Source: Nymphaea colorata
Lineage: Eukaryota > Streptophyta > Magnoliopsida > Nymphaeales > Nymphaeaceae
DNA length: 64,000 nucleotides
Direction: 5' to 3'
Assembly: GCF_008831285.2 (NCBI RefSeq)
Contig: NC_045141.1
Span: 7,551,353 to 7,615,352, forward strand
Part shown: in pieces, positions 2,030-58,269 of the stretch
How the letters are laid out: each line of letters begins with the position of its first letter
Numbering within the stretch: the first letter of the stretch is position 1
The notes under the pieces: model-generated
What the model saw: only the letters and a program-made list of their open reading frames with translations
Told to the model about the DNA's origin: nothing
Database searches by the model: none
Made by a program: the position numbers and the translations under genes

Positions 2030-4474
2030 ATTACAAATTCATTGCATCCCTATTGCATCTACTTTACTATCTGATCAGTTTATTTATGTTGTTTGTATCT
2101 GTAATCGTTTTTTTTTTTTTCTCGTTAGATCAGCGCTTTCGAGCGCTTCTTTCTCGGTGCGAGTTGCGGCCCTTCTCCTTCGTTGCTTTCGGAAACAAAA
2201 TATTCAAAAAGATTGTAGTAAACAAATGAGAGGGAAATCTCAAATTAGTACTTTACTCTTTTGGTCATTACGCACCCCTATGCATGCACAGGAGTGTTTA
2301 TATAACCAGCTTTCAATAACTTAAAGTTTTACCCAAAAACCGTGGTGGGTGTTCAGGTCAAACACACTTTTCATACGTTGGACTCCTCACAAGCCACAAT
2401 TTTAGTATTTTTACAAAAATCTACCTTTTTTCATGTGAGGGGCACTTTTGTCATTTCAATCATGAACACATAATTAACCTACTTTGACTTTATGTGGTTG
2501 ATTAAGCAACATATAATGTCTGTCGATCTGGGTGTGGTTTTTCTCTGCAATAAATTAATAAAAAAAAGATTGGGATATCGATTTCCTCTTCTACTTGCGG
2601 AAGAAGATGGCAATGCATTTCATGTGTTCTCGTAATTTTGATCAGAAAGCTGAGAATAGTATTATTTTGTAGGTCTCAAATTGTACAGTTTGTCCATCAT
2701 CAGGGTCTGTTAACCATAGGACTAGCTTTGAAGGTTTTTTTAAAAAAAAGAGGGAAGGGTGATTATGAGAACAGTTAGGTGAAGATAGGATTAATTTGTC
2801 TATAAACGGTAAGTTATGGTTTTGTCCAGAAAAGATTGAGTGAATCACTTTGGATATGGATACCACCAAGCAGCATCCCAAGGTTTGAAACGGGAAGCAG
2901 GCGTTTCTCCCTATTTGTGCTAAAGGATTATAAGTTTGAATAGTTTTATCAATATTTAGTAGCATGTTGTAAATCCAGTACAGTTATACTTAGCATGCAT
3001 ATATAATAGCTAGCATTGCACTACGTGAATTTTTTCTTTTGGTAATTAACAGAACCTTTGGTTGAAGAAAATATATAGCGGATATTATACTGATAAAATT
3101 TAAAATTGCCCTTCAAACTCATTCTACAGTGTCTCATTTAGCTCATATATAGGTAATGATAAGTAACGCCAGCCTGACCACAAAAGTATAGGAAAATTGA
3201 AATCAGTTGGCTGCCAGATATTACATGATGCATGGCTAAATATTAAAATAGTCCACCACTAAATGTATCATAATGTGTCGCTCCACCATAAACTGTTGCT
3301 AGTGCCTCTGCTGCAAAGTGCGTTTAATGACGGCTAATTTTTAAATATTTTGTGATCATCCAGCAACATTCGACAACGAGCTTATTTGAATTTTTATACA
3401 TGTATACACATGTATGGTGTCTGAAGTTTCTAGAAAAGCTCCAACGAGGGGGCAGTCATATGCAAATCTATGTACTTTCGTATTTCGTATGGCATTTTGA
3501 CAAGTTATACAATTCTGGGATCTGGCCCCTTATGGCTCATATATATGTGCCTTCCCTGAACCGGACAAGGAACAGACCTAAATATTAAGCAAGCAGCTGA
3601 CGAATCTTCTAAGAAAGCTTATTCATGCTGATAAACCATTGTGGCTCAAGGGTGTTAGTCCTAAAATGAAGCAGAGAGTGTAGCTAATGGTTGAAACAAA
3701 TAACTTCTTCAATTTGAATCACATGCAATATCTCTAAATGTGGCCATTAAAGAAAAGTGCGTCTGAGAATAGAAACTATGGCTGCAAACGATGTAGAGCC
3801 CCTATATATGTCAGGGTTGACACCCTTCTACTCAACAAATTAACGCAACAGTAGGCAAGAATAACTCCCCATTACGTTTCCTCGTTACCATCAACAAAGA
3901 ATCAGGAGGCAGAGCATCTCCCTCACAAACTCCAATAGATCTGTCCTTAACTACTGATATCCATTAACTGAAACTATAGAAATCAAGACTGGCAGCTTCT
4001 ACCTGGTCTGCGGGCAAAGCTAAAGGTCTCCATAATTTTCTTAAACTGGGATGACACTCTTCAAATTAATGAATTGCCCACTAGTGCCGTAAATATAATC
4101 TTCCCTCGCCTCATTTTATTGATTATGGTATTCAACTCCAGTTATATTGTTCGCAGCCTTTCTGAAATTTATGCAGGACATTGTAGACTCAGGCTGAAGT
4201 CCTTAAGCTTTGATGCTCCCAGAGTTTCCAAAACCTAGTAAATGTCAGAATCGATTATTTCTAAATGTTTTCTATGGTGAAGAATATCGCCTAACGTTAG
4301 AGACATTTTCACGCGAAACAAAACTATCTGAAACCATTTGACCCGTCAGAAAACAATGAAAAACATTGCTAAATATGGTTCTATAAGATTTTAGATGTCC
4401 CAAAGAAAAGTGAGGAAAAAGAAGCACAAACTTGAGACCTGTTGGTGCTACATATGGTAATAAATTAACTCAAC
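2030..4474. other. Intergenic, no gene or element recognised
   Basis: This stretch is AT-rich. Open frames such as those at 2642-2965 and 3352-3588 have no domain, no codon bias and no splice-consistent extension. I see no LTR, terminal inverted repeat or RNA gene. Confidence 0.5.
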
Positions 4475-6578: not shown

Positions 6579-6753
6579 GATTTTGTAGAGTCATCACCAA
6601 CTCTTGGGAAGGGTCGAGAAAACGCAAGAGGCTTTGAGCCTCTCCTTTTTAAAGTCGGTGCTTTTAAAGTCACCAAGGAAAACAAAAAAATAATTAAAAA
6701 ATGATGATAAGTGTAGAAATCGGTGGAAGCTTCATCCACGACTTCTTCATCTC

Positions 6754-6761
6754 TATAAATA
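6754..6761 (+). promoter_or_regulatory. copia-1 LTR TATA box
   Basis: TATAAATA lies 170 bases into the LTR and is preserved in the 3' copy near 18390-18397. Its position suits the U3/R boundary promoter of a copia LTR. Confidence 0.6.
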
Positions 6762-6817
6762 GGGATATTGGGCATAGGGGTTGAGCACTGTGAGTGTGGT
6801 TGAGTCTTAGTCTATGT

Positions 6818-6995
6818 GCTCACTTTGTGAGCTGGTGAGGTGGGTGAAAAAATTGTGAGGTTGAGTGACCTTGGGTGCTCACTTTGTGAGTTGAGGTGTA
6901 TGCTCAATTTATGAGGGAGAGTGTTAGCTCGTGTGTTCAATTCATGAACTCGAGTTAAAGTTTCAAGTGTGTGTTGCAAGTCGTTGGGTGTGTTA
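6818..6995 (+). repeat. Array of short hairpin-forming palindromes in the 5' LTR
   Basis: Several units of the form GCTCA-N5-TGAGC lie in the transcribed half of the LTR. The first is at 6818-6832, and the array is complete in the 3' LTR (18453-18647). The fifth unit of this copy is split by hAT-1. Confidence 0.7.
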
Positions 6996-6997
6996 GC
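6990..6997. repeat. hAT-1 target-site duplication, left copy
   Basis: GTGTTAGC here is repeated exactly at 15140-15147. In the uninterrupted 3' LTR the same octamer occurs once, immediately before the matching TCACTGC. Confidence 0.93.
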
Positions 6998-7009
6998 TAG
7001 GGATGTCAA

Positions 7010-7440
7010 CGGATCGGATTCGGATCGGATATACTCTTTATCATATCCGACTTTTCGGATATACATATTTTCGGATTCGAATTCGGATTCGAATTCGGAT
7101 AAAATAAAATCTTAAAAATATCCGAATCCGATTTTTAAAACCATATCCGAATCCGATCCGAATCCGACTTTTAAATCAAAATCTGGTTCCGAATCCGAAT
7201 CCGACTTTAAAATCCAAAATCCGATTAAAATCCGAATCCGACTTTTTATTTCAATATCCGATTTCAATCCGAATCCGATTTTTTATTTCACTATCCGATT
7301 TCAATCCGAATCTGACTTTTTATTTCATTATCCGATTTCAATCCGAATCCGACTTTTTATTTCATTATCCGATTTCAATCCGAATCCGACTTTTTATTTC
7401 ATTATCCGATTTCAATCTGAATCCAAATTTTATATTTAAA
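7010..7440. repeat. hAT-1 left subterminal repeat array
   Basis: There are many direct and inverted copies of ATCCGAATCCGA-like motifs. Within it, from about 7240 to 7424, a unit of about 37 bases (ending in CAATCCGAATCC) is repeated five times in tandem. Subterminal arrays of short motifs are the usual transposase-binding regions of hAT elements. Confidence 0.8.
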
Positions 7441-8203
7441 GATCTCATTCTGATATAAAGACTTTCATATTTGACATCCAAAACTAACTTTTAAATTGCT
7501 AAAAAAATTCATTCCACCACTTCTTGTTTCTCACAGCTCAAGAAAGGGCCCACAAGGCAATATCTAAAACATTATCACTACAATAGCTGCACATTCTGCC
7601 TGCTTAGCAAAATATCATGTATTTTTTTACCAAGTGCCTCCATGAACGTTAATTACCAATGTTCTTTTAAAAACAAAACAAAAAACAAAAAAATGCCCAA
7701 AGCATAAAGGGCGACGAGCCAGACTGCCTAATAAGTTTCCATTAAATATCTAGGCATCTGCAAAAAACTATACAGTCTGAAGCTTTCAATATATACACTT
7801 GAACTGTTATAACATACAAATGAAAGTAATTGGTGAGAAAGGCACAAAAACCTTAATTCTCAAAACAAAACTATGATATGAAACAAAAGTCCACCTTCTC
7901 TGATATAAATTTCTAAAAATTGTACTTTGTTGTTTGTTGATGCAACAAGAGACTAGACGAGCCATCCTTCACATCTTCAATAATAATAAAAAAAAATCAT
8001 CATATAGTCCAAGCTTACAAAATTTTTCTTTCAATGCCTTCATTTGCCACAAAGGATATGACCTTTCTGTTTGGATATATTAAGGTCCTGAAGATAATGA
8101 AAACTTTAATTAAATAAACATCTTAGACTCACTTGACACATAACTCTAGGTTTTAATTGATTTAATGAAAACAAATAAATACAAAATAATATATACCTCT
8201 AAT
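7441..8203. other. hAT-1 non-coding left arm
   Basis: AT-rich sequence between the subterminal array and the transposase stop. It probably includes the transposase 3' untranslated region. No coding signal is seen. Confidence 0.5.
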
Positions 8204-10308
8204 TTACGATTCAGTTTCAATGTATGCAGATGCAAATGGTGCTTCCTCTTCAGGTAAAGGTGTAGGCAAATCGGAATCATCTAACAAAAGAATAAAATAA
8301 GCAACACAAAAATATATTTAAAAACATTAATAATAAGTAAATTACCTTCAGCCTTATCTCGCAATCAACCTTGTGCACAAATCAAAGCCTCCACGGTCTT
8401 GCAACCTAATCTACTTCTGTATAAATCAAGAATACGTCCACCTGTACTAAATGTTGACTCTGATGCAACAGTTGATATAGGAAGAGCCAAAATATCACAT
8501 ACCATTCTAGATAACACAGGGTATTTAGGTGCATTGACTTTCCACCAAGTCAAAATGTCAATTGGATTGTTTTTTGGGTAAATGGGCTCTTCCAAATACA
8601 ACTCCAAATCTGATTTTCTATGTTGGCTTTGTGATGATTCTTCAAGAAAGTCATCTAATGCACTTGTTCTAGGCTTCTTATTAGAAGAAACCTCAATCAA
8701 AGAAGTCAAAGTAGATGCTTCATTATCCTTCTCAACATCAACAATGTAACCAGTACCAGCAGAAAGTGTCTTCAATGCATAAGTAGCTTTATATTCATCA
8801 TAAAGATCACAAAGATAATTCTTAATTGCAGAAACAAGTTCATATGCTTCATCTTTATAAAATTGCCTATAATAAAACTCAATTATTTTCATCTTATAAT
8901 GAGGATCAAATACCACTGCAACTGCTAAAATTAAATTGCATATATCCCAATACTTGTCAAACTTTGTTTTCATCCTCATTGCCATATTTGAAAGGCAAAT
9001 ATCTGAACTTGAACACATTTTTTCAATTTCCAACTTTATCTCACAAAACTCTTTAAAGAAGATATTGGAAGTTGGACACTTGACTGCAGAAATGACATTA
9101 GTAGCATCATAAAATACCTTCAAACTGTTATGAATAATAGTAGCCTTCTTCCACTCATCCTTTGTCGGTCTGAAATGATAGTGACGATCAAGTTCTTCAA
9201 AACGACCAAAAGCTTCTTTATATTGTAAAGCTACATCAAGCATAAGAAATGTTGAGTTCCATCTAGTTGGAACATCAAGGCACAACTTTTTTTCACAAGT
9301 AACTTTGACATGACGCACTGCTCGATCAAAAATTTCACAGCGAGCTGGAGATGCCTTAATATATTTTATGCTTTCTCTGATCTTGTCAATCACATCACTT
9401 ATTTCTTTGACACCATCTTGCACAACCAAATTAAGAATATGAGCAGCACATCTAACTTGAAAAAATTTTCCATTACAGACAAGTGCATCCTTTTCAAGAA
9501 GCCACTCTATCAATTTTGTAACCATGATATCATTTGTTGAACAATTATCTAATGTAATTGAAAATAACTTGCGATCAATATTCCATTTTAGTAAACAATC
9601 TTTGATGACTGATGCAAGTCTTTCTCCTGTATGAGGTGTTTCAACCATAACAAAGTTGAGAACTTTCTTTTTTATTTCCCAACTATTATCAATATAATGT
9701 GCAGTCAAACATAAATAACCACGTTTTTGACAAGACGAAGTCCACATGTCAGATGTAAGACTAATCCTCCCATTAGTCTTCTCCAAAATAGTACGTAATT
9801 TTGTCATTTCATCTTCATAAATATGTATGCAATCTGATCTAATAGTGTTACGTGACAATAACTTAAACTGTGGTTGTAATCCTTTAACAAATTTCTGAAA
9901 TCCAGAATGACCAACTATACAAAATGGATATTCATGAAGAATAATCATGTTGGCTAAATCTTGTCGACTTTTATCTGAATCAAACTTGAAAGTACCAACA
10001 GTACATTTTTCATCCTTTTCATAAAAAACCAGACGTTGTTGACATGATTCTAAGTTAGGCCTTTTAGGACATGATTTTAAATGATTCTTCAAAAGTGAGG
10101 TGCCCATCTTACTATTGCAATCCATAGATACTTTACAGTGTTGACAAATAGCACGTTGAATACCTGATTCGTTTATTGTCCTGCTGAACTCTTTCCATAC
10201 CGCTGATCTTAGTGACTTGGTTTTCGTAGATATGTCAACTTCTATATTGTTAGCAGAGACGGAACTAGAAGCATTGGCACCTGATGTTGTAGAATCCATA
10301 ATCTGCAT
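8204..10308 (-). CDS. hAT-1 transposase (BED zinc finger, RNase H-like core, hAT dimerisation domain), one nonsense codon
   Basis: The large exon (8346-10308) encodes, in order, a BED finger (C55, C58, H76, C80), an RNase H-like core with aspartates in TSDMWTS (D187) and TLDNCSTND (D254), and the C-terminal hAT dimerisation region (about residues 584-647, with VASESTFS). This is the RICESLEEPER/DAYSLEEPER-type layout. TGA at 8365-8367 sits where the family has Trp (usual context CAQDWLR). After it the same frame continues LRDKAEG to a splice donor (GAAG/GTAAT). A second exon at 8204-8280 adds an acidic tail ending TES before TAA. Thus a single TGG-to-TGA change removes about the last 30 residues, while the catalytic core and dimerisation domain stay open. 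Translation more likely starts at the second Met (10299), because TATGCAG just before it looks like a splice acceptor of a 5' UTR intron. Confidence 0.9.
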
Positions 10309-10701
10309 ATAAAAAATAGAAAACTTTAACTAAACCATTCGAAAGCAAAAAATGGGAAGAAAAAGGAGGAGGCACAAAACGATACAGAAGTACTAGAGAA
10401 AAGCAAATGCCAAAACAACTATTTGAAACTACAAAACCATATCAACAAGTGCAGCCAACCAAAAGGAGGCACATGCATAAAAATAGAAAGTGACATGTCA
10501 TATTTTGCATATTTCATAAACAGCAAGTTTTCCTTTCATAAACCCTCGGTCATATAAGTCAGTATTTAAGTTGGAAACTGAAGATGCTGCATAAGTGACT
10601 CCTGCTATGGCAGATAGGAGAAAATGTGGAACTATGGAAACTGCATATATGATTGCACTTTACTTCTAACGATGATAAAGCATCATTTAGCTCCTTGGGA
10701 A

Positions 10702-10773
10702 TTGGGAAGTAAGTTCCATCCATTGGGATCCCACGTCATCATCCACTACCTTGCTGAGACCAAAATCAGTCAC
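10702..10773 (-). pseudogene. Captured TOUSLED-like kinase exon fragment 1
   Basis: The minus strand reads VTDFGLSK, then VVDDDVGSQ and MELTSQ, the activation-loop DFG region in the exact wording of plant TOUSLED (TSL) Ser/Thr kinases. Homology stops at TSQ, an exon boundary in appearance; the next bases do not continue the kinase. It lies inside hAT-1 with no start codon or kinase N-lobe, so it is cargo, not a gene. It overlaps in content with the second fragment at about 11335-11500. Confidence 0.7.
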
Positions 10774-10929
10774 TTTTCAATTAGCTCCATCTCGCCTTTC
10801 ACTAGTTTTCACTGCAAACAAGTGTGGAATTATCAAGGCATAAATGAAACGCGTCCCTATGAACACAACCTATGTGGTAAATACACGTGGTCCAAAGTCT
10901 CCGTGTGTAAGAATCCATCACCACTCCAC

Positions 10930-11140
10930 CACACTCTGTTCAACAGATTAATAAAAAGAAAAGAAGAGAGAAAGAGAGAGAGAGGAGAAGGACCGTGGGT
11001 TGGAGAGAGGCTGAAGCAGCTTTGGCATGTGATACGCCACCATCCCCGTGGGTTTCTGCATCGCCATTTCTTTCTTCCTCCCTCTGTTTCTCTTTTCCCC
11101 TTTCATATGAGATGAAAGTGTGAATGGAAGGAAGCACGCC
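10930..11140. other. Purine-rich and GC-richer segment of unknown origin inside hAT-1
   Basis: A GA-rich run (about 10958-10985) is followed by higher-GC sequence unlike the AT-rich filler around it. I could not assign it to a gene. It could be a UTR or leader of a captured host gene. Confidence 0.3.
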
Positions 11141-11334
11141 AGCACCAATGGTCCCCTTCTCCTCTCTCCCTTTTCTGCTGCTCCAACTCAGAGGCCCTCA
11201 CTGTCGTGTATTATTAACTTTATATCTATCATCGGTCACTAAACTATTTTGAAAAGCTATGTGGTATAAATTCATTTGAGACGATATAATGCAGGCTCAT
11301 AACTCATAAGCAAGTTTGCATCCATTGGGATCTA

Positions 11335-11500
11335 AGTTCCATCCATTGGGATCCCACATCATCATCCACTACCTTAGACCAAAATCAGTCACTTTTCAAT
11401 ACCGACCTCATCAAAAAGAACATTTCCAGGGTTCAAATCATAGTGAATAATCTTTTGTTGGCAGTACAGCAGAAAATTGACTACATAACGAATGACCAAA
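11335..11500 (-). pseudogene. Captured TOUSLED-like kinase exon fragment 2
   Basis: The minus strand encodes the catalytic loop QKIIHYDLNPGNVLFDE, where plant TOUSLED kinases have HYDLKPGN, so the catalytic Lys is replaced by Asn. VTDFGL and VVDDDVGSQ follow after a one-base frameshift. The shared tail with the fragment at 10702-10773 (including the unusual join ATTGAAAAGTGACTG) suggests the two pieces are a partial duplication made inside the element or during capture. Confidence 0.75.
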
Positions 11501-12039
11501 AAAGGCAGATTATGCGATGAAGATATTTTAGGGAAAAAAGGGTATCAGAGGATCACAAAAAAATTGAGGTGGAGAGGAGAGATGTAATCGGCGGGGAAAA
11601 TGAAAATCATTATACTGAACGTGCGTCTTTCAAGAAAATGAGATCATATATTCATGAAAAGGAACAAAACCCACAAACCAGAAATGTCCAGCTTCTTGGC
11701 ATTATTCTTTCATGTCTTCCGGAGGGTGGGGGTGGGGGAGAGGGGCGAGAGAGAGAGAGAGTGGGAACCAAATCTGATACATTATTCTGTATTAATCGTA
11801 TATATGGTTTTTTTTACCAGCAATATCAACTTTTCTCAAACAGATCTCTTTACATTAGCAGGATTCAGCCAAGAGGTTAAATGAGCTAAGAAAAGCAAAT
11901 GCAGGACAAGAAGACCTACGAAACAGAGATAAGACTTTCATATTTCTAGCATGACAGTCATCTCAACTTCTCAACGTTGTTGACAAGATAATAAACATGT
12001 TACTTCATCATCAGCGCCAGCGAGTGGTAGAACATCACC

Positions 12040-12165
12040 AGCCATGGAGTTCCAAGCAACCACATCCCTCTGCGGCATCTTCTCAGACACTTGGTATGCA
12101 TTGTCCAAGCATCCACATTTGCTATACATATCAATCAGTGCAGTTACAACAAATACGTCGTTCAT
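12040..12165 (-). pseudogene. Captured PPR-protein fragment
   Basis: The minus strand reads NDVFVVTALIDMYSKCG, then LDNAYQV and EKMPQRDVVAWNSM. This is the classic pattern of a plant PLS-type pentatricopeptide-repeat protein (organelle RNA-binding). About 42 residues, just over one repeat, remain with neither start nor continuation. After WNSM the repeat pattern is lost. It lies inside hAT-1, so it is best read as a captured exon piece. Confidence 0.75.
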
Positions 12166-12319
12166 TTGTAATCAAATAAAACCAAAGTGCATCATCTTCC
12201 GACTTTAAACAAACATCTCGACTAGAAGAAAGAATGCCACAAGCAAACACATCAAAACCAGAGGCAAGAAAAAGCTTTAGGGGAGAGCAGCATTACCTTA
12301 GTGAGTTGGGGATGATAAG

Positions 12320-12505
12320 GGCGAGCACTTTCAGGACGAAAAGGTCGAGTCTCCTCCCTTTTGGTACTGCACCGATTACACTGTGGACAGCAACTTCGAC
12401 CACAACCTGCGCCGCGCGTTCGCCTCCCTGCCCCTGAAAGCCAACGTTTCCCTCACCAGCTTCTACAATGCCACCGAGGGAAGGAAAGCCGACCAAGTCA
12501 CCTGA
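12320..12505 (+). pseudogene. Captured DUF26 (Gnk2-like, CRRSP/CRK) fragment
   Basis: The plus strand reads WYCTDYTVDSNFDHNL, then FASLPLKANV, then FYNATEGRKADQVT followed by TGA. This matches the N-terminal half of a DUF26 domain (NYT..S.F..NL..L..SL, then FYNAT.G...D.V.GLA.C). The first of the conserved cysteines of the C-X8-C-X2-C motif, just downstream, is not reached. The domain occurs in apoplastic cysteine-rich repeat secretory proteins and receptor kinases. It is GC-richer than its surroundings, which supports capture from a host gene. Confidence 0.6.
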
Positions 12506-12863
12506 CTCACCTCAAACTTTTTTTGTTTTGACCCTGAACGCAGCGTGAGAGAGCGAGAGGGAGAAGAAAAGAGGAGAAGAATGGCAAGGGTTATTCTTCG
12601 AATCTTTGGTGCAGGGAGGAACGGTGCAGGGAAGGAAGAACGTCAAGAACGTCAAGCAATTCTTTTCTTTTTTTTGTTTCCTTTTCTTGTTTCCTTTTTT
12701 GTTTTTCCTTTGAGCCGTAGGAAAGAAGAAACGGCACCCACCAATCATCTTCAATAACGTTCATTTAACAACCAATAAAAACGATTGCTTTTACAAGCAA
12801 ACAAAATGGGCGGGAAGCTTCATTTTCATTTTAAATTTGATCAACTTAAATTGAACTTCAAGG

Positions 12864-13008
12864 AAAAACTATGGTTTTTTAATTTCGTCCAACCTATAGA
12901 TAGTTGAAAATTGTAATATAAGTAATTTAAAAAACTATGGTTTTTTAATTTCGTCCAACCTAAAGAAAGTTGAAAACTTGAGAACATATATTATATAAGT
13001 AATTTAAT
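12864..13008. repeat. Two-copy direct repeat in hAT-1 filler
   Basis: The phrase AAAAACTATGGTTTTTTAAT and the following bases (TTCGTCCAACCTA and onward) occur twice, about 68 bases apart, each followed by a variant of GTTGAAAA and AAGTAATTTA. Confidence 0.7.
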
Positions 13009-13009
13009 A

Positions 13010-14700
13010 ATATGACATTCTAACTGGACTCGGGTGTAAGTCGGAGCCGCACCCATGTTCGGTGCGCACCCGACTTGATGCGACGCGGGTGCGACATTAA
13101 AATAAAAGAGTTCGGGTGACTCACTGCTAAAAAAATTTTTAAAAATTATGTTTTGGCTTCATTTTAAATTTTAAAACTATAGTTTGACTCTGACAACATA
13201 ACAACTTCTAAGTATATAGTATATAAAAAAGCTATTATTTGATATATCAGATAATTTATTAAATCGAACAATTTGTTATTTTGCTACTAGTTAAAGTTTT
13301 TGTTTTCGAATTTGTGAATTATGTATTATATATCAAACACCTACGACTTTTGGATAAGAATTTATTTGATAAATAATTTTTTTATGAGTATAGCAGATTT
13401 TTTATATTAAATATATTTATTTGCGATTATGCAAGTGGAGAAGCTTTCAACTAAAATGAATATCATAATGCGTTTAAGATTTTCTATCAACTTTTTTTAT
13501 TTTATGACTTTACCAGTTTAGCAGTTTGTTTGCTATCAACTTTTTTTTTCATAAGTGACATACATGCCAATAGTTTTTCTTGACACCTTTACTTTCTTAA
13601 ATATATAATATAGCTATACTTGAAACCAATTTGACATAATAGTCTATTAAAATTTATAGCTTTAAAAAATGTCTTTTTCATATTTTAAAAATTCTCATTT
13701 TTTTGAATTTTTTGATTGAAGTTTTTTTTATTATTTTTAATTAAATAAATATATTATTTAAGATTTCCTGCTAAAATACACGATGAAGAAGCTTTCCTAC
13801 TTTCGTTATCAAAATTGTGAACATTGAACATTAATTGGTTTATTTGAAACGAATAACATATTTTAAATTGAGTAAACTATTATTTCATGATCATCAGTTG
13901 ATCACTTATTGTCAATTATTAAATCGTGACACCCATATTATTTATCATTAAAAAATATTATTTAACTTCTCTTTTTTCTCATTTTATTGAGTTAATTAAA
14001 ATAATTTGTGTTACACCCGTAAAAAGAGTGTTTAATAATATAAAATAATTTATTAATCCTCTTACCTTTATTACTATAATTATTCTTTACATAAAATTTT
14101 ATAATTACTCCAATGATATGTAAGATAGTTTATTAAATCGAACAATGTGTTGTTTTCTTAATAGTTAAAGGCTTTTGTTTTCAAATTTGTGAATTATGTG
14201 TTATATATGATAAGACTTTTGGACATATTATATGATTATACAAAATGATTTACTTGATTAATTGAATAAATAATTTTTAATTTCATAAATTAAAACTTTT
14301 TTATGTGTTCAAGACTTTTTTCATATTAAACATATCTATTTGTGATTAATTTTCATATTTTTAAACTACTAATTTTATTGAAATTTCCTTATAGAAGTTT
14401 TTATTATTATTATTAATAATTAAATAAATACATTATTTAAGATATCCTATTTAGTTGATGTCTTAACTATAATAGTTTGCTTGTTTACAGAAAAACGTTT
14501 AATTAAATATAATATTAATTATTATTTTATTATTTTTATATGATATAGTTTTAAATTGTTTAAGTTAAATGGTATAAATAGTTTATATCATTATATGCAA
14601 CTTCATAAAAACAATCAGCTATTAATCAGATTATACCTTCATATAAAGTTTATATTATATTTACATCATAACTTTAAGTTGGTGCGCTTGGTTAGACCTT
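13010..14700. other. AT-rich filler of hAT-1
   Basis: About 1.7 kb of very AT-rich DNA with no open frame of note. A short GC-rich patch at 13024-13110 contrasts with the rest and may be the end of another element. Partially repeated phrases (for example around 13255-13290 and 14125-14170) suggest old internal duplication. Confidence 0.5.
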
Positions 14701-14754
14701 TTGGCTAACCATTCACAGGTCTCTACTTCAAAACGTGGGGTCACCAACTCAATC

Positions 14755-15139
14755 TTAAATTCGGATTCGGATATCATCGGATTCGGATGTTGGGGTCACC
14801 AACTCAATCTTAGATTCGGATGTCGGATATATCACGGTTCGGATTCGGATATCAAGCTGTAATTCGGATTCGGATATACTTGTTAAGATGGTTAAGTGTC
14901 CGATCGGATATTTACTTAAAACCGAATCCGAATCCGTATCCGATCGGATAAGATGGTTCAATATCCGATCGGATATTTACTTAAAACCGAATCCGAATCC
15001 GTATCCGATCGGATGTTACTTCTTAAATCCGAATCCGATCCGATTTCTCAATCGGATGTCAAATTACTAACCATATCCGATTTTTTACAAGCGATTCGGA
15101 TCGGATATCCGATCCGAATCCGATCCATTGACATCCCTA
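14755..15139. repeat. hAT-1 right subterminal repeat array
   Basis: Dense copies of GGATTCGGAT and its complement lie here, including a unit of about 70 bases repeated near 14898-15013 (with ATATTTACTTAAAACCGAAT) and a GGTCACCAACTCAATCTTA phrase repeated at about 14740 and 14793. It mirrors the left array and ends with the terminal repeat. Confidence 0.8.
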
Positions 15140-15351
15140 GTGTTAGCTCACTGCATGAGCCGAGGTGAGTTTTCTTAAGCCCTCCTTTGTAATATCCAGT
15201 TTGATAAATAAATAGTTTACATTTTAAAGAATACTTTGTCAAAGTTATTATTGAGTATCATTTTGAACGTCGAGACTCTACTGGATTTTCTCCCAATATA
15301 TTGGAGTTTGTAGCTGAGTTATATTTAGGGCCCGCATCGCGTTTTCCAACA
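15140..15351 (+). repeat. copia-1 5' LTR, right part (begins with hAT-1 duplication)
   Basis: Starts with the second GTGTTAGC (15140-15147) and continues as the last part of the LTR, nearly identical to 18640-18838. It ends TTCCAACA at 15351, directly before the primer-binding site. Confidence 0.92.
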
Positions 15352-15353
15352 AG

Positions 15354-15365
15354 TGGTATCAGAGC
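15354..15365 (+). other. copia-1 primer-binding site
   Basis: TGGTATCAGAGC, two bases after the LTR end, is the standard plant copia site complementary to the 3' end of initiator tRNA-Met. Confidence 0.88.
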
Positions 15366-15427
15366 GAGGTTCTGTCTGAGGGCCGTTTTACTGGTGAGAT
15401 TAATTGGGCCAATTATATTCTGAAATT

Positions 15428-18180
15428 ATGGCGGCATTAGCGGTTGCATTAAATAATATTGAGAAGCTTAATAATAGCAATTATGGCTATTGGAAATCTT
15501 GCATGGAGTCTTATTTTCTAAGACAGAAATTATGGGGAATAGTATTGGGATCAGATACAAATATTCCTGTCGACGAAGAAGCTAAAAACAAATGGATGAT
15601 CAAAGCAGGGAAAGCTCTATTTGCAATTAAAGTATCAATTGGAAAAGATTTATTAGAGCATATACGAGATGCTACGACTCCTAAAGAAGCATAGGATGCT
15701 TTTGCAACCCTATTTTCACGAGCTAATGACGCCCGCCTACAATTGTTGGAAAATGAGTTAGCTACATTAACTCAAGGAAACATGTCGATAGCAGAGTATT
15801 TTATGAAGGGTAAAAATATTTGTAGGGAGATATCTCAAATTGACCCTGAGTCTAAAATTAGTGAGGCCCGTATGCAGAGAATTCTTATTCGCGGACTTCG
15901 TCCAAAATTTGGCAGTTTCATAATTGGTGTTCAAGGCTAGCCAGTTCAACCAACTTTGTTGGAATTAGAGAATCTCTTGACCAATCAAGAAACGTTAGCG
16001 AAGCAAATGGTTGGGCTTTCTCTCAAAGGAAATAATGAGGAAGCGTTGTTTAGTAAGGGTCAGAGATCACGTTGGCCAACTAAGCCAGTCATTCGGTCTC
16101 CAAGTAGGAATATTGACCAAAAGAAGGAAAAAAATGTAGAAAATAAAACAAGAGAAACTACACAGCAGTGGAGACCAAAGAAGAAGTGTTTTAGATGTGG
16201 AAGATTGGGACATTTTGCTCGTGACTGCAGAGTCAAAATAAATGAAGGAAATACAGTTACGACAAGTAAGCAATATGGGGGAGCTAACGCGACTGTATAG
16301 AAAAGTTCATTTTTGTACTCAATGAAGGTTAAAGAAGATATTACACAAGAAAGATGTAATTCTGCCCATACAAAACCAGTAAAAGAAAAAGAAGAGAAGA
16401 TCAATTATCAAACTGATTGGATAATTTATTCTGGATGCTCAAATCATATGACTGGTGATGAGAGCAAGTTTGTAAGTATGAAAGAATATGATGAAAATCG
16501 AATTGTTGTTACAGCTAACAACACAAAGCTCCCAGTGGCATATATTGGAGAAGCTGAGGTTGTAGCCAACTTTGGCAAAGACCGGATTTTACGAAACGTT
16601 TATCATGTTTCAGGAATGACTAAGAATCTGTTGTCTGTGCCACAACTTACAGCTTTAGGGCACTATGTTGTGTTCGGCCCAAATGATGTAAAAGTTTATA
16701 AGGATGCAGATGCTCAAGGAACTCCCATGTTTGAAGGAAAGAAAGTTGAGTCAATATATGTCTTGTCCGCAGAAACAACATATATTGACAAAGCAAAGAA
16801 GCACGACACTGCAGATATTTGGCATGACAAACTCGCTCATGTTGGATACAACAAACTTCGGGAAATGTCTAATAAGGGGCAGTTGATTGGCCTGTCCAAG
16901 TTTGAGGTACGAACTGACAAAGTATGTCCAGGATGTCAGTATGGAAAGGCGCACAGGAGGCCATACAAAGAATCAAAATATAGAGCTAAAGCGCCATTCG
17001 AGCTTGTGCATTCAGACGTATTCGGCAAAGTACCAGACCCATCAATTGGAGGTAAGTGGTATTTTATCACTTTTATTGATGATTTTTCGAGATATACTTG
17101 GGTCTATTTCATGAAAAAAAAGTCTGAAGCACTTGAAAAGTTCAAGGAGTTTCACCAGATGGTGAAAAATGAACTCGGGTATAAAATTCAGTGTCTACGC
17201 ACTGATAATGGTGGCGAATATACATCTGACATGTTTATGGCATACCTGAGGTAGCATGGTATTCGAAGACAATTCACATGTGCCTATACGCCACAGCAAA
17301 ATGGAGTGGCAGAACGGAAAAATCGCCACATAGCAGAAACATGTCGAAGCATGATGCATGCAAAGAACATGCCACCAAGATTTTGGGCCGATTGTGTCAG
17401 CACCGCTGTACACGTAATCAATCGACTACCAATGCCGAGATTTAATTTTAAGTCTCCATATGAAATGCTCCATAAAAAGAAGCCATCTATGAGTTATTTT
17501 AGAGTTTTTGGTTGTGTATGTTATGTTTTTATATCTGAGCAGCACAGGACTAAGTTCGACAAGAAAGCACAGAGGTATGTATTTGTCAGATTAGATCCAT
17601 ATCGAAAGGGATGGACATGTACTAATCCTAGCACAGGACAAGTTCATGTTTCGCGCGACGTCATCTTCGATGAAGCATCATCATGGTGGTCAGAAGAAAA
17701 GAAAGCGCTTCCAGACACTCCAGTTTTTGAGAAAGATGTTCGAAACAAAATACAATTCGAGATGAATCAAGACGAACCTGAATCGAAAGTCCTAGAAGCA
17801 AGAATACAGATAAACAAGTTCATAGCCCAAGACAAGAAGAACTTGCAGATCCATGGAGAACTGGAGTGAGTCCAATCCAACAAAAAACTGCAGAAGAAGA
17901 AAGACCATCATAATTTGAAGAGCCAGAAGAAGCACCCATAACACTAAGAAGATCAACGAGAATACCAAAACCAAATCCCAAGTATGTAGATGCAGACTGT
18001 GTCATAATGGAGGAGATCGAGCCAGCTTCTTTTGAAGAAGCAAAAGATGTTGAAAAGTGGCAATCAACAATGAAAGATGAAATGAAGACATTGGAGGATA
18101 ATGAGACCCGAGAACTCGTACCAAAGGCTTGCCAGTGCAAACATTCACCAAGTTTGAAGAATGTTAAGTGTCCTGGGTCA
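15428..18180 (+). pseudogene. copia-1 gag-pol remnant (gag, protease, integrase; RT and RNase H deleted)
   Basis: One reading frame runs from the gag ATG (15428) to about 17868. It is broken by TAG at 15692, 15938, 16298 and 17252 and by TGA near 17867. Domains in order: copia gag (UBN2-like, with NYGYWKSCMESYF), a CCHC knuckle (CFRCGRLGHFARDC, about 16187-16228), protease IIYSGCSNHM, GAG-pre-integrase, and integrase core with HSDVFG, RTDNGGEY and NGVAERKNRH (the D, D and E are all kept). The protease catalytic Asp of DSG is Tyr (codon at 16427). After a frameshift the start of the RT domain is visible (EPASFEEAKDVEKW, about 18020). The frame then jumps at about 18130 to the last gag-pol residues, so the RT catalytic region and RNase H are missing. 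The element depends on other copies for reverse transcription, if it moves at all. Confidence 0.9.
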
Positions 18181-18189
18181 AGAGTCGGT

Positions 18190-18203
18190 AATGAGGGGGA
18201 GAT
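18190..18203 (+). other. copia-1 polypurine tract
   Basis: The purine-rich GAGGGGGAGA run just before the 3' LTR start at 18204 primes plus-strand DNA synthesis in LTR elements. Confidence 0.75.
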
Positions 18204-18838
18204 TGTAGAGTCATCACCGACTCTTGGGAAGGGTCGAGAAAACGCAAGAGGCTTTGAGCCTCTCCTTTTTAAAGTCGGTGCTTTTAAAGTCGGTGCTTAT
18301 GTAATGATTAAAGGAAAACAAAAAAAATAATTAAAAAATGATAAGTGTATAAATCGGTGGAAGCTTCATCCATCGACTTCTTCATCCCTATAAATAGGGA
18401 TATTGGGCATAGGGGTTGAGCAGTGTGAGTGTGGTTGAGTCTTAGTCTATGTGCTCACTTTGTGAGCTTGTGAGGTGTGTGAAAAAATTGTGAGGTTGAG
18501 TGACCTTGGGTGCTCACTTTGTGAGTTGGGGTGTGTGCTCAATTTATGAGCTGGAGAGTGTTAGCTCGTGTGTTCAATTCGTGAACTCAAGTTAAAGTTT
18601 AAAGTGTGTGCTGCAAGTCGTTGGGTGTGTTAGCTCACTGCGTGAGCCGAGGTGAGTTTTCTTAAGCCCTCCTTTGTAATATCCAGTTTGATAAATAAAT
18701 AGTTTACATTTTAAAGAATACTTTGTCAAAGTTATTATTGAGTATCATTTTGAACGTCGAGACTCTACTGGATTTTCTCCGAATAAATTGGAGTTTGTAG
18801 CTGAGTTATATTTAGGGCCCGCATCGCGTTTTCCAACA
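18204..18838 (+). repeat. copia-1 3' LTR (635 bp, intact)
   Basis: Starts TGTAGAGTCATCACC and ends TTCCAACA, followed by GATTT, the target duplication also present at 6579-6583. It shows the pre-insertion structure of the hAT-1 target: GTGTTAGC followed by TCACTGC near 18628. Confidence 0.93.
18453..18647 (+). repeat. Five-unit hairpin array in the 3' LTR
   Basis: Palindromes with 5-6 base stems lie at 18453-18467, 18512-18526, 18537-18551, 18572-18586 and 18633-18647. Four share the GCTCA/TGAG(C/T) stem. The fourth reads GTTCA/TGAAC, a paired change that keeps the stem. Confidence 0.75.
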
Positions 18839-56100: not shown

Positions 56101-58269
56101 TTATAAGTAAACAACTTCTATAACATATAAGCGTAAAATAAACATGATAAAACTTAAATATACATGCATTTTGGTACTTGCCTTTAGCAATACCGGTACA
56201 AGATTCATAGGGTCGCCATACTGTTTTATCCAATCGCCTAAACAAACTAATTCTTCTACTGTCTTTAGGCTCAATGAACTCCTAGATTCATCCACAATTC
56301 GACCTCCAATACTAAAAGCAGATTCAGAGGCAACTGTAGTGATAGGAATACACAATATATCTCTTGCCATATGTGATAAAATGGGGTATTTCAGTTCTTT
56401 ATCTTTCCACCAAATTAATATATCAAACGAATCATGAGCGGTAACATCACATTTGAGCAATCCATCTTCTAAATACATATCAAGCTCAGACTTTGAAGCT
56501 TGAAAATGAACATTGTCTGCTTTATTTAAAAAGCTAAAAAATCTTATTCTACTTCTACTGGAGTTGCCACATGATGGGTCAGTTCCTCTCATAAAAGTAG
56601 TAGAATCACTTTCAACATCTTTATTTGAACCGTCAATTTTTGCAATGTAGCTATTATAAAGGTCTTGCATTGTACTTCTTACTAATGTCATATGTTCTTC
56701 TTTTTCTTCTATTTGACAAAAAGTCTTTGAAAAGACAAAGTCTGTTAAACTCAACTTTATCCTTGGATCTAGTATCGAAGCAATAGTCATTAATATGTTG
56801 CGGGAACTCCAATATTTATCAAAATTTTCCTTCATTTTGAATGCCATTCTCTTCATAAAGCTAGACCCATTTGTAACTCCTTCTTGTAATAATTCTTGAA
56901 CCCCCCAAATTTCTAAGAAAAATAGGTTCGTTGTAGGATACTTCGACCCTGAAAAAAGAACAGAAACATTATAAAATGCTTCAAGAAAAGAACATATTTT
57001 TTGTACTCTCTCCCATTCTTCTGCATCCAACAACCAGGTAAAACCAACATCTTCCATAGCAAATCTATCAAACACATGTCTGTACATAAGTGCAACTTCC
57101 AACATCAAGTAAGTAGAATTCCATCTAGTTGAAACATCTAGCACCAACTTCTTTTGACCACGCATTTCAAATTCATCTACTATAACCTGAAAGTTGTAAA
57201 GTCTTGATGGGGAACATTTTATGTATTTGACAGCCTCTCTGATCTTACCAAGTTCATCTCTAATTACAGACAAACCATCTTGCACCATTAGATTTAAAAT
57301 ATGTGCACAACAACAAACATGAAAAAATTTACCGCCTTGGTATAGACTTACACCACTTTTCTCTAAAATTTCTTTTAATGTTCTTACAAGAACATCATTA
57401 GAAGAAGCATTATCAACCGTAATTGAGATGATCTTCTTTTTTATTTCTCATTCTTGAATATTTTTAGCAATCACATTTGCTAGATTCTTCCCTGTATGAG
57501 GTGGTTCGACTTGGCTAAAACCAATTATACGCTTTTGAAGTGTCCAAGAATGATCTATGAAGTGAGCTGTAATGGAAATATACCCAATTTGTTGGTTAGA
57601 CGTCCACATATCTGTTGTCAAAGCAACGAAAGGAACTCTTTTAAAATATTCCTTCAATTTCTTTTTTTCGACCTCGTATAATTTTGTGACATCTCTTTTC
57701 ATTGTTGTCCTTGAAATGGGTACCCAATTTGGAAAAGCAACCTTCATTAAAAATCTAAACCAACAATGTTCAACCATATTGAATGCATACTCATGACAAA
57801 CTACCATCTTTGCTATTATTTCTCTTATCTTTTCAGTATCAAGTTTGGCACCCTTACTTATTACTTTCTTTGTAAGGCCTGAAACTTCACTAATCCCAAA
57901 CCTCAAAGTATTTTGCGTCAAACTACCAGAACGCATAAGACATTTATGTCTTTTCATTGATGATGTACACCCTCCTGAACTTATAACAAATGTTGTTTTA
58001 CAATACTTGCATCTACCTTTTTTGACACCACCCACAGTTACTTCTTCAAAATCATTCCAAACTGAAGAAGTTCTTGCCCTTTGTCTTTTCATACCACCCA
58101 CAGTTACATCCTCATTTTCAACAGACCTTGTATTAGTAGGATCTAAACTGTCATGAGCTATAGACTGTTGTGTAGAGCTTCCTACATTATGTGGTTCTGT
58201 TGAACCTGCTCCTGAACTGCATATTACTTGTTTGTCTTTACTAATAGTATTTTATATCGGTGAAGACAT
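56101..58269 (-). pseudogene. hAT-2 transposase (BED, RNase H-like, dimerisation domain) with two nonsense codons
   Basis: One frame runs from an ATG at 58267-58269 to a likely splice donor near 56176, broken only by TAA at 58252-58254 (codon 6) and TGA at 57448-57450. Order: Ser-rich N-terminus, BED finger (VWNDFEEV, CKYCKTTF, SSMKRHKC; about 57955-58065), catalytic core with LTTDMWTS (about 57610) and SITVDNASSND (about 57420), HVCCCAHILNLMVQDG, and the C-terminal dimerisation region FDILIWWKDKELKYPILSHM with VASESAF (about 56290-56440). The TGA lies where the family has Trp (KNIQE-W-EIKKK). The rest is fully open, so decay is recent. The 3' end after LLKA probably splices; the downstream exon was not defined. 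Terminal repeats of this element were not paired. Confidence 0.88.

Follow-up and report, generated by a model that had tools for sequence, protein, structure and literature searches.

The hAT element hAT-1 of Nymphaea colorata, located in the 64,000-nucleotide stretch of DNA that was analysed as a whole (the window), carries a mosaic of short patches whose parents are seven loci on six contigs of the host genome (C1, C2 with two loci, C4, C7, C10 and C11). The patches can be assigned to these parents, are nested within one another, recur in related copies in which some have shrunk, and have moved as a unit with the element to sites with different target duplications. This cargo is probably explained by the repeated refilling of a broken interval between the start codon of the transposase and the end of the element on its 5' side. 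The features of the element, with the loci to which its patches were aligned, are as follows (positions are those of the window):

6990..6997, no strand: left target-site duplication, GTGTTAGC
6998..15139, minus strand (the sense of the transposase): whole hAT element hAT-1, 8,142 bp
7118..7450, no strand: subterminal 37-bp repeats with the ATCCGAATCCGA motif
8366..10299, minus strand: hAT transposase frame of 644 codons and then an in-frame stop (open reading frame and domain matches)
10342..10379, minus strand: putative remnant of the 5' region of a starch-synthase-like gene (C2:28.9 Mb)
10383..10781, minus strand: TOUSLED-like kinase piece 1, exon end and intron (10383-10777 against L026 4123-4590, 76.9% over 468 columns)
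10796..11320, no strand: copy of DNA from C4:15.44 Mb inside the kinase piece (L020, 79-85%)
11324..11458, minus strand: TOUSLED-like kinase piece 2, catalytic-loop exon (L026 4515-4653, 89.2% over 139 columns)
11457..11770, minus strand: 5' region of the starch-synthase-like gene (L019 4877-5189, 95.2% over 314 columns)
11771..11995, no strand: patch matched only weakly elsewhere (69% at C6:14.918 Mb; 88% over some 70 bp at C1:43.64 Mb)
11996..12039, plus strand: 44-bp remnant of a tRNA-adenosine-deaminase-like gene (C10:3.0 Mb; L027, 97.7%)
12039..12159, minus strand: PPR fragment (L033, C2:14.451 Mb, 94.2% over 121 columns)
12237..12339, minus strand: remnants of a gene at C7:17.69 Mb (12237-12284, 93.8% over 48 bp; 12314-12339, 26 bp, E=0.001)
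12354..12500, plus strand: DUF26 (Stress-antifung) fragment (L031, 82.7% over 156 columns)
12560..15139, minus strand: hAT-family end on the 5' side of the transposase, matching many family loci
15140..15147, no strand: right target-site duplication, GTGTTAGC

hAT-1 starts with TAGGGATGTCAACGG and finishes with CCATTGACATCCCTA, and its flanks carry the perfect 8-bp duplication typical of the hAT superfamily, together with short terminal inverted repeats that read TAGGGATGTCAA(C/T)GG at both ends. The element is inserted in one (the first) LTR of a Copia-like retroelement (window about 6583-18838), the gag-like frame of which matches DUF4219 (E=7.2e-7) and Retrotran_gag_2 (E=5.3e-6). The other LTR of this retroelement (18203-18838) represents the empty site for hAT-1: once the flanks of hAT-1 are joined, keeping a single copy of the duplication, they match it at 93.6% across the junction, and the borders of hAT-1 are therefore exact.

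Profile searches with the transposase identified hAT-like_RNase-H (E=2.9e-31) and Dimer_Tnp_hAT (E=1.4e-27, aligned as far as position 81 of the 84 in the profile), such that both the RNase-H fold and the C-terminal dimerisation region of the superfamily are present, while a BED zinc finger scored below its curated cut-off (E=0.24). As the transposase lies on the minus strand, the cargo (about 10340-12510) is situated 5' of it, and not downstream as the first-pass annotation had placed it. That annotation had also described the transposase as almost open, which agrees with the 644 codons preceding the stop, and the element as apparently coding-competent, which is not supported in view of the terminal in-frame stop of the window copy and of the internal stops or frame shifts found, with the window frame as reference, in all eight of the other near-complete copies (L009, L010, L011, L013, L017, L018, L028 and L029). 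Among partial transposases, L022 has one stop and L030 has none over 230 aa. The longest frame seen is that of the window copy, where the in-frame stop precedes a tail at which the frame of L011 reads on. An intact transposase was thus found neither in the window copy nor among the copies compared, which places hAT-1 outside the autonomous hATs. Elsewhere in the window, positions 57092-57333 are 70-78% similar to the transposase region of hAT-1 and are probably part of another hAT.

Parents of the cargo were sought in the 408-Mb host genome (G000), and the patches were aligned to six parent loci (L019 on C2, L020 on C4, L026 on C1, L027 on C10, L031 on C11 and L033 on C2). None of 100 dinucleotide shuffles of 10383-12510 matched these six loci at E<=1e-6, and the element parts 7000-8300 and 12600-14700 likewise gave no match to them at this threshold. 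The kinase, PPR and DUF26 fragments of hAT-1 are thereby confirmed as real, each with a parent locus in the host genome. The first-pass annotation had read two kinase pieces, one PPR piece and one DUF26 piece in the cargo; all four lie where it placed them, and every named fragment could be matched to a locus outside hAT-1, which disposes of the alternative that the fragments lack homology to the named genes. Its estimate of at least three host genes is surpassed by the seven source loci.

The parent of the kinase pieces (L026, C1:20.03 Mb) has an exon that matches tousled-like kinase 2 (PDB identifier 5o0y, E=3.9e-24), the only PDB sequence found for it at E<=1e-10; the Pfam match of the 51-aa kinase piece on its own is not decisive. 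The kinase stretch 10701-10781 occurs again at 11324-11400 as a duplication of ~80 bp. The C4 piece aligns with L020 over 475 columns at 79% and 82 columns at 85%, and its source DNA is apparently non-coding. The segment L019 4877-5189 sits about 410-720 bp upstream of the start codon at L019:4468. The name starch synthase for the L019 gene is tentative and is based on motifs read in its frames and a weak PDB match (E=0.02); a second exon found nothing in the PDB at E<=0.001, and scans of its frames with Pfam and NCBIfam gave nothing useful. The remnant at 10342-10379 was not found by direct comparison in the window element, and we infer its origin from the same 5' region via longer pieces in L011 and L013. 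The patch 11771-11995 has a longer counterpart in L016 (437 bp), and the deaminase-like piece is kept over 299 bp in L015 and L016 (95.7-96.3% to L027). The end of the frame of its parent gene matches the TadA model with an E of 3.7e-8, below the model cut-off. The PPR parent L033 has an open frame of 862 aa with PPR_2 at E=2.2e-71 in the 585-aa stretch scanned. No Pfam match was found for the exons of the C7 gene, which we take to resemble the chromophore lyase CRL; its piece is longest in L028 (665 bp, 91.4%). The parents of the DUF26 fragment form a cluster at C11:19.78-20.37 Mb (six-frame matches) that includes L031, with a parent domain E of 6.6e-31. We also note that the cargo-bearing L010 (C11:19.57 Mb) lies about 0.2 Mb from this large gene cluster. 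The exon-like edges ascribed to the fragments hold for one kinase edge, which coincides to within about 2 bp with an intron's 3' end (L026:3796), and otherwise do not, as patch edges mostly fall inside exons, in an intron or in upstream DNA of the parents.

In all, 25 loci were fetched (20, 3 and 2 small ones), patches were tabulated in the window element and 18 element loci, and family counts from the genome search are lower bounds. Comparison of cargo among related copies, as the first-pass annotation had suggested, revealed kinase or starch-synthase 5' DNA, or remnants of these, in the window element and nine others (L009, L010, L011/L012, which are one split element, L013, L015, L016, L017, L018 and L029). 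Several of these relatives harbor longer and better-preserved pieces (for example, kinase at 85-90% in L011, L013, L016 and L017). In L013, L016 and L017, the starch-synthase 5' DNA flanks the kinase piece on both sides, so that the latter must be an interruption of the former. The C4 insert in turn lies between the ~80-bp kinase duplicates, and in L016 and L017 there is a single kinase stretch and no C4 DNA. Two independent kinase captures were considered and rejected, a single capture divided by the C4 insert being the better fit. In the genome search, the C4 piece was found only in the window element, L009, L010, L011/L012, L013 and at its parent locus. PPR DNA is present in the window element, L009, L010, L014, L015 and L016 and in the distant L023, L024 and L025, and DUF26 DNA is present also in the older-branching L021 and L022 (89%). 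The C7 piece is found in all ten elements compared for it (window, L010, L014, L016, L018, L021, L022, L023, L025 and L028), being short in all except L028. This distribution of patches and their nesting among relatives suggest a rough order of capture, in which the C7 piece would have been followed by DUF26 and PPR, then by the starch-synthase 5' DNA with the kinase, and then by the C4 DNA; the order among the middle captures is tentative.

On the right-end tree, L013, L012, L010, L018, L009 and the window copy are grouped (fork 87/86), which fits a single gain of the C4 DNA, L018 having lost the C4 region. The left-end tree groups L013 with L017 and L029 (95/96), in conflict with a single gain, and the transposase tree leaves L013, L017 and L029 unresolved with L028 as outgroup. 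A single C4 gain would agree with the left-end tree only if L017 had lost the insert or if copies had recombined; the C4 insert may have been removed from L016 and L017 when the ~80-bp repeats recombined with each other. As observations in their own right, L011/L012 (C14:2876322-2906888) is one element interrupted by roughly 23 kb of other DNA and bounded at both ends by matching GGTACAAA duplications, and neighbouring copies of the family's right end lie in inverted orientation to each other at C6:25.585-25.588, C9:6.578-6.581, C5:5.003-5.005 and C1:0.773-0.775 Mb, which suggests fold-back derivatives.

The alignment of the window copy with L009 shows 25 substitutions over 7,956 aligned bases, 4 of them in 10340-12510, and also five gaps. 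The two copies are flanked by different target duplications (GTGTTAGC and CTTGCATC, respectively). Hence, the cargo moved with the element. With a substitution rate of about 7e-9 per site and year, their divergence would be of the order of 0.2 million years. Perfect 8-bp duplications were found at 5 of the 18 element loci scanned (L009, L015, L016, L018 and L025) and, beyond these, for the window copy and the split copy on C14, with L010 showing an imperfect pair; the loci were taken at about 10 kb, and missing ends or duplications in some copies are not to be read as evidence of absence. L018 has lost 1.47 kb of cargo and kept its perfect duplications. L015 (4.5 kb), in which no transposase was found, and L016 (5.6 kb), which retains 83 of 1934 bp of it, both keep cargo and, being without all or nearly all of the transposase, are Pack-hATs in the strict sense. 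Thus, from the interpretation of the first-pass annotation, the capture of several genes by one hAT and their spread as a unit survive, while coding competence is not supported and rarity is overstated.

Some of the cargo probably passed from element to element and did not come directly from the genes, since the PPR DNA of L025 and L016 agrees more closely (289 of 300 identical) than do the ends of L025 with those of the window copy (442 of 496 at the right end and 272 of 356 at the left). The PPR gene itself is identical to L025 at 292 of 301 positions and to L016 at 292 of 300. Identities to the gene depend on the method of counting, those of L014 and L016 being 94.2-94.6% with gaps and 97.3% on gap-free columns. 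L021 and L022, which are nearer to the window copy on the right-end tree, had no PPR DNA in the patch tabulation. From these comparisons, the PPR block was probably passed between sublineages, or else L021 and L022 may have lost it while it changed slowly in the other copies. Separate captures of one PPR gene, although compatible with the PPR substitutions alone, are unlikely because the same gene region, among 150 PPR matches listed, occupies the same position in the element.

We propose that the stretch from the transposase start codon to the end on its 5' side was broken repeatedly, that repair synthesis would have filled each gap with short unlinked chromosomal stretches (exon, intron, 5' and non-coding DNA), and that the cargo-bearing element would have spread by cut-and-paste transposition after the captures. 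Such refilling would correspond to template-switching gap repair following excision or a replication break; a gap-filling or FoSTeST model is described for animal Pack-TIRs in the available text of PMC8277862. The presence of the kinase intron and of upstream DNA indicates that DNA rather than mRNA was copied, and capture from mRNA was rejected on account of the retained intron. At the five junctions inspected, the patches either overlap by a few bases or are separated by unexplained filler of up to about 26 bases. The same interval of L028 (3820-4893) contains abutting patches of 94-104 bp, each with a single match elsewhere (C11:10.085, C3:3.274 and C13:7.403 Mb), beside the C7 piece (C7:17.694 Mb). 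Unlinked donors, intron and non-coding DNA, the 44-bp remnant, the nesting, the junctions and the L028 fillers are together consistent with template-switching repair. Against it, the mechanism is read from end-state copies, none of them caught mid-event, and the C4 piece is only about 79% similar to its parent, whereas the kinase piece surrounding it is better preserved; its actual donor may therefore be a different copy. The possible loss of the C4 insert from L016 and L017, the conflict between the end trees and the probable transfer of cargo between elements also count against it. Most likely, the cargo is passive filler that sits in the 5' leader of the transposase.

Host DNA could alternatively have been trapped between two nearby hAT insertions that were mobilised as one, as in a fusion model published for Pack-CACTA and Pack-TYPE elements with hAT examples (PMC8903248, in the text available). 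Decayed hAT-like ends are seen in L020 at 3461-3562 and about 4119-4364 (looser alignment), some 0.3-1.2 kb from the C4 donor segment 4770-5352, and a weak hAT-like end is seen in L019 at about 8339-8413, about 3.1 kb from the donor segment 4571-5189. Ends of this kind would be left by neighbour fusion or by element-to-element transfer, and they count against gap repair; the proximity of L010 (C11:19.57 Mb) to the DUF26 cluster (19.78-20.37 Mb) also favours fusion. A strict scan of L019, L020, L026 and L027 found no hAT ends, and L026, L027, L031 (1.2 kb) and L033 (3.0 kb) have no hAT-end similarity at E<=1e-3. With seven source loci spread over six contigs, patches lying within patches and L028 pieces abutting at about 100 bp, we consider fusion of neighbours an unlikely origin of the cargo. 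Still harder to uphold is the idea that the fragments arrived with separate mobile elements nested inside hAT-1, which the first-pass annotation had named as an outcome that would speak against capture, and which has the slimmest chance among the alternatives. The C4 piece is indeed an insertion with a direct duplication of ~80 bp on its flanks, but usual transposon target sites are much shorter than this duplication, and the piece matches one locus outside the family. Terminal repeats were not seen on the patches, several pieces match host genes and no patch was seen with transposon ends of its own; nested transposons were accordingly rejected as the source of the fragments.

The fragments might instead have been retained for a service to the element, with the starch-synthase 5' DNA acting as leader or promoter, or with antisense DUF26 and deaminase pieces giving small RNAs against their parents. 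The former would fit the starch-synthase 5' DNA lying in transposase sense close upstream of the transposase start codon, as a remnant 43-80 bp upstream in the window copy and a longer piece about 170 bp upstream in L013, and the latter would fit the orientation of the DUF26 and deaminase pieces, opposite to the transposase. However, the part of the starch-synthase 5' DNA near the start codon is nearly gone from the window copy, and the two minus-strand TATAWA motifs in the window cargo lie in other patches (11804, in the patch 11771-11995, and 11224, in the C4 piece). L019 4441-5260 has no TATAWA motif, for which a captured promoter was rejected as the main explanation, and we regard a service to the element in either form as very improbable. 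Repeated refilling by gap repair is therefore the reading we prefer. A broader proposal is put forward tentatively, as a possibility that we hold to be doubtful: the interval may be a site of recurrent capture of unlinked host DNA by break repair in at least two hAT sublineages, which would then have exchanged PPR blocks, making the family a pool for shuffling host sequences and not a set of one-off Packs.

hAT-1 offers a useful natural record of how hAT elements take up DNA. Its family has unlinked donors that could be located, layers nested in one another, copies that either possess or lack a given layer, and an outgroup with other fillers, all of which make the proposed mechanism testable by breakpoint analysis. 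It also illustrates that transposase-bearing hATs can carry multi-gene cargo, and pipelines that exclude transposase-positive elements will miss such cases. Among the matches listed in the open-licence literature, no title or abstract shown described serial nested capture in one hAT lineage.

The first-pass annotation had overstated the rarity of such elements, since the available texts already contain Hatvine-6 hATs (PMC2528002), Pack-hATs and Ds elements with gene fragments. The grapevine Hatvine-6 elements are hATs that bear a transposase and have variable regions of genic content (Benjak et al. 2008, PMC2528002) and, going by their description, resemble hAT-1 in combining a shared transposase and terminal inverted repeats with a variable region that often matches genic introns or exons, 35 copies having more than 90% of the transposase; the available text of that paper describes no serial or nested capture order, shrinkage or exchange between lineages. 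Maize Ds2 and Ds-l4 are likewise hATs with gene fragments, some of which may contain introns (two Ds2 and nine Ds-l4 cases), for which break repair has been suggested as the cause, but they are non-autonomous, in contrast to hAT-1, which keeps a transposase frame and whose patches come from seven or more loci (PMC3260210, as far as its available text goes). Pack-hATs among the Pack-TYPE elements share with hAT-1 the hAT ends, 8-bp duplications and host gene fragments between terminal inverted repeats (Gisby and Catoni 2022, PMC8903248, available text). Unlike hAT-1, whose 644-codon frame sets it apart, they are defined as non-autonomous and without transposase, a definition that L015 and L016 fit; hAT-1 would not be listed among them because the pipeline used files transposase-positive elements as autonomous. 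The animal Pack-TIRs, in the text available (PMC8277862), resemble hAT-1 in the template switching with short microhomology proposed for their origin and have hAT as their commonest carrier (208 of 370), and are mostly single-copy, whereas the hAT-1 family is multicopy, from a plant, and has successive captures. Thus, transposase-bearing hATs with genic cargo are already known, and what hAT-1 adds to them is an unusually legible history of capture.
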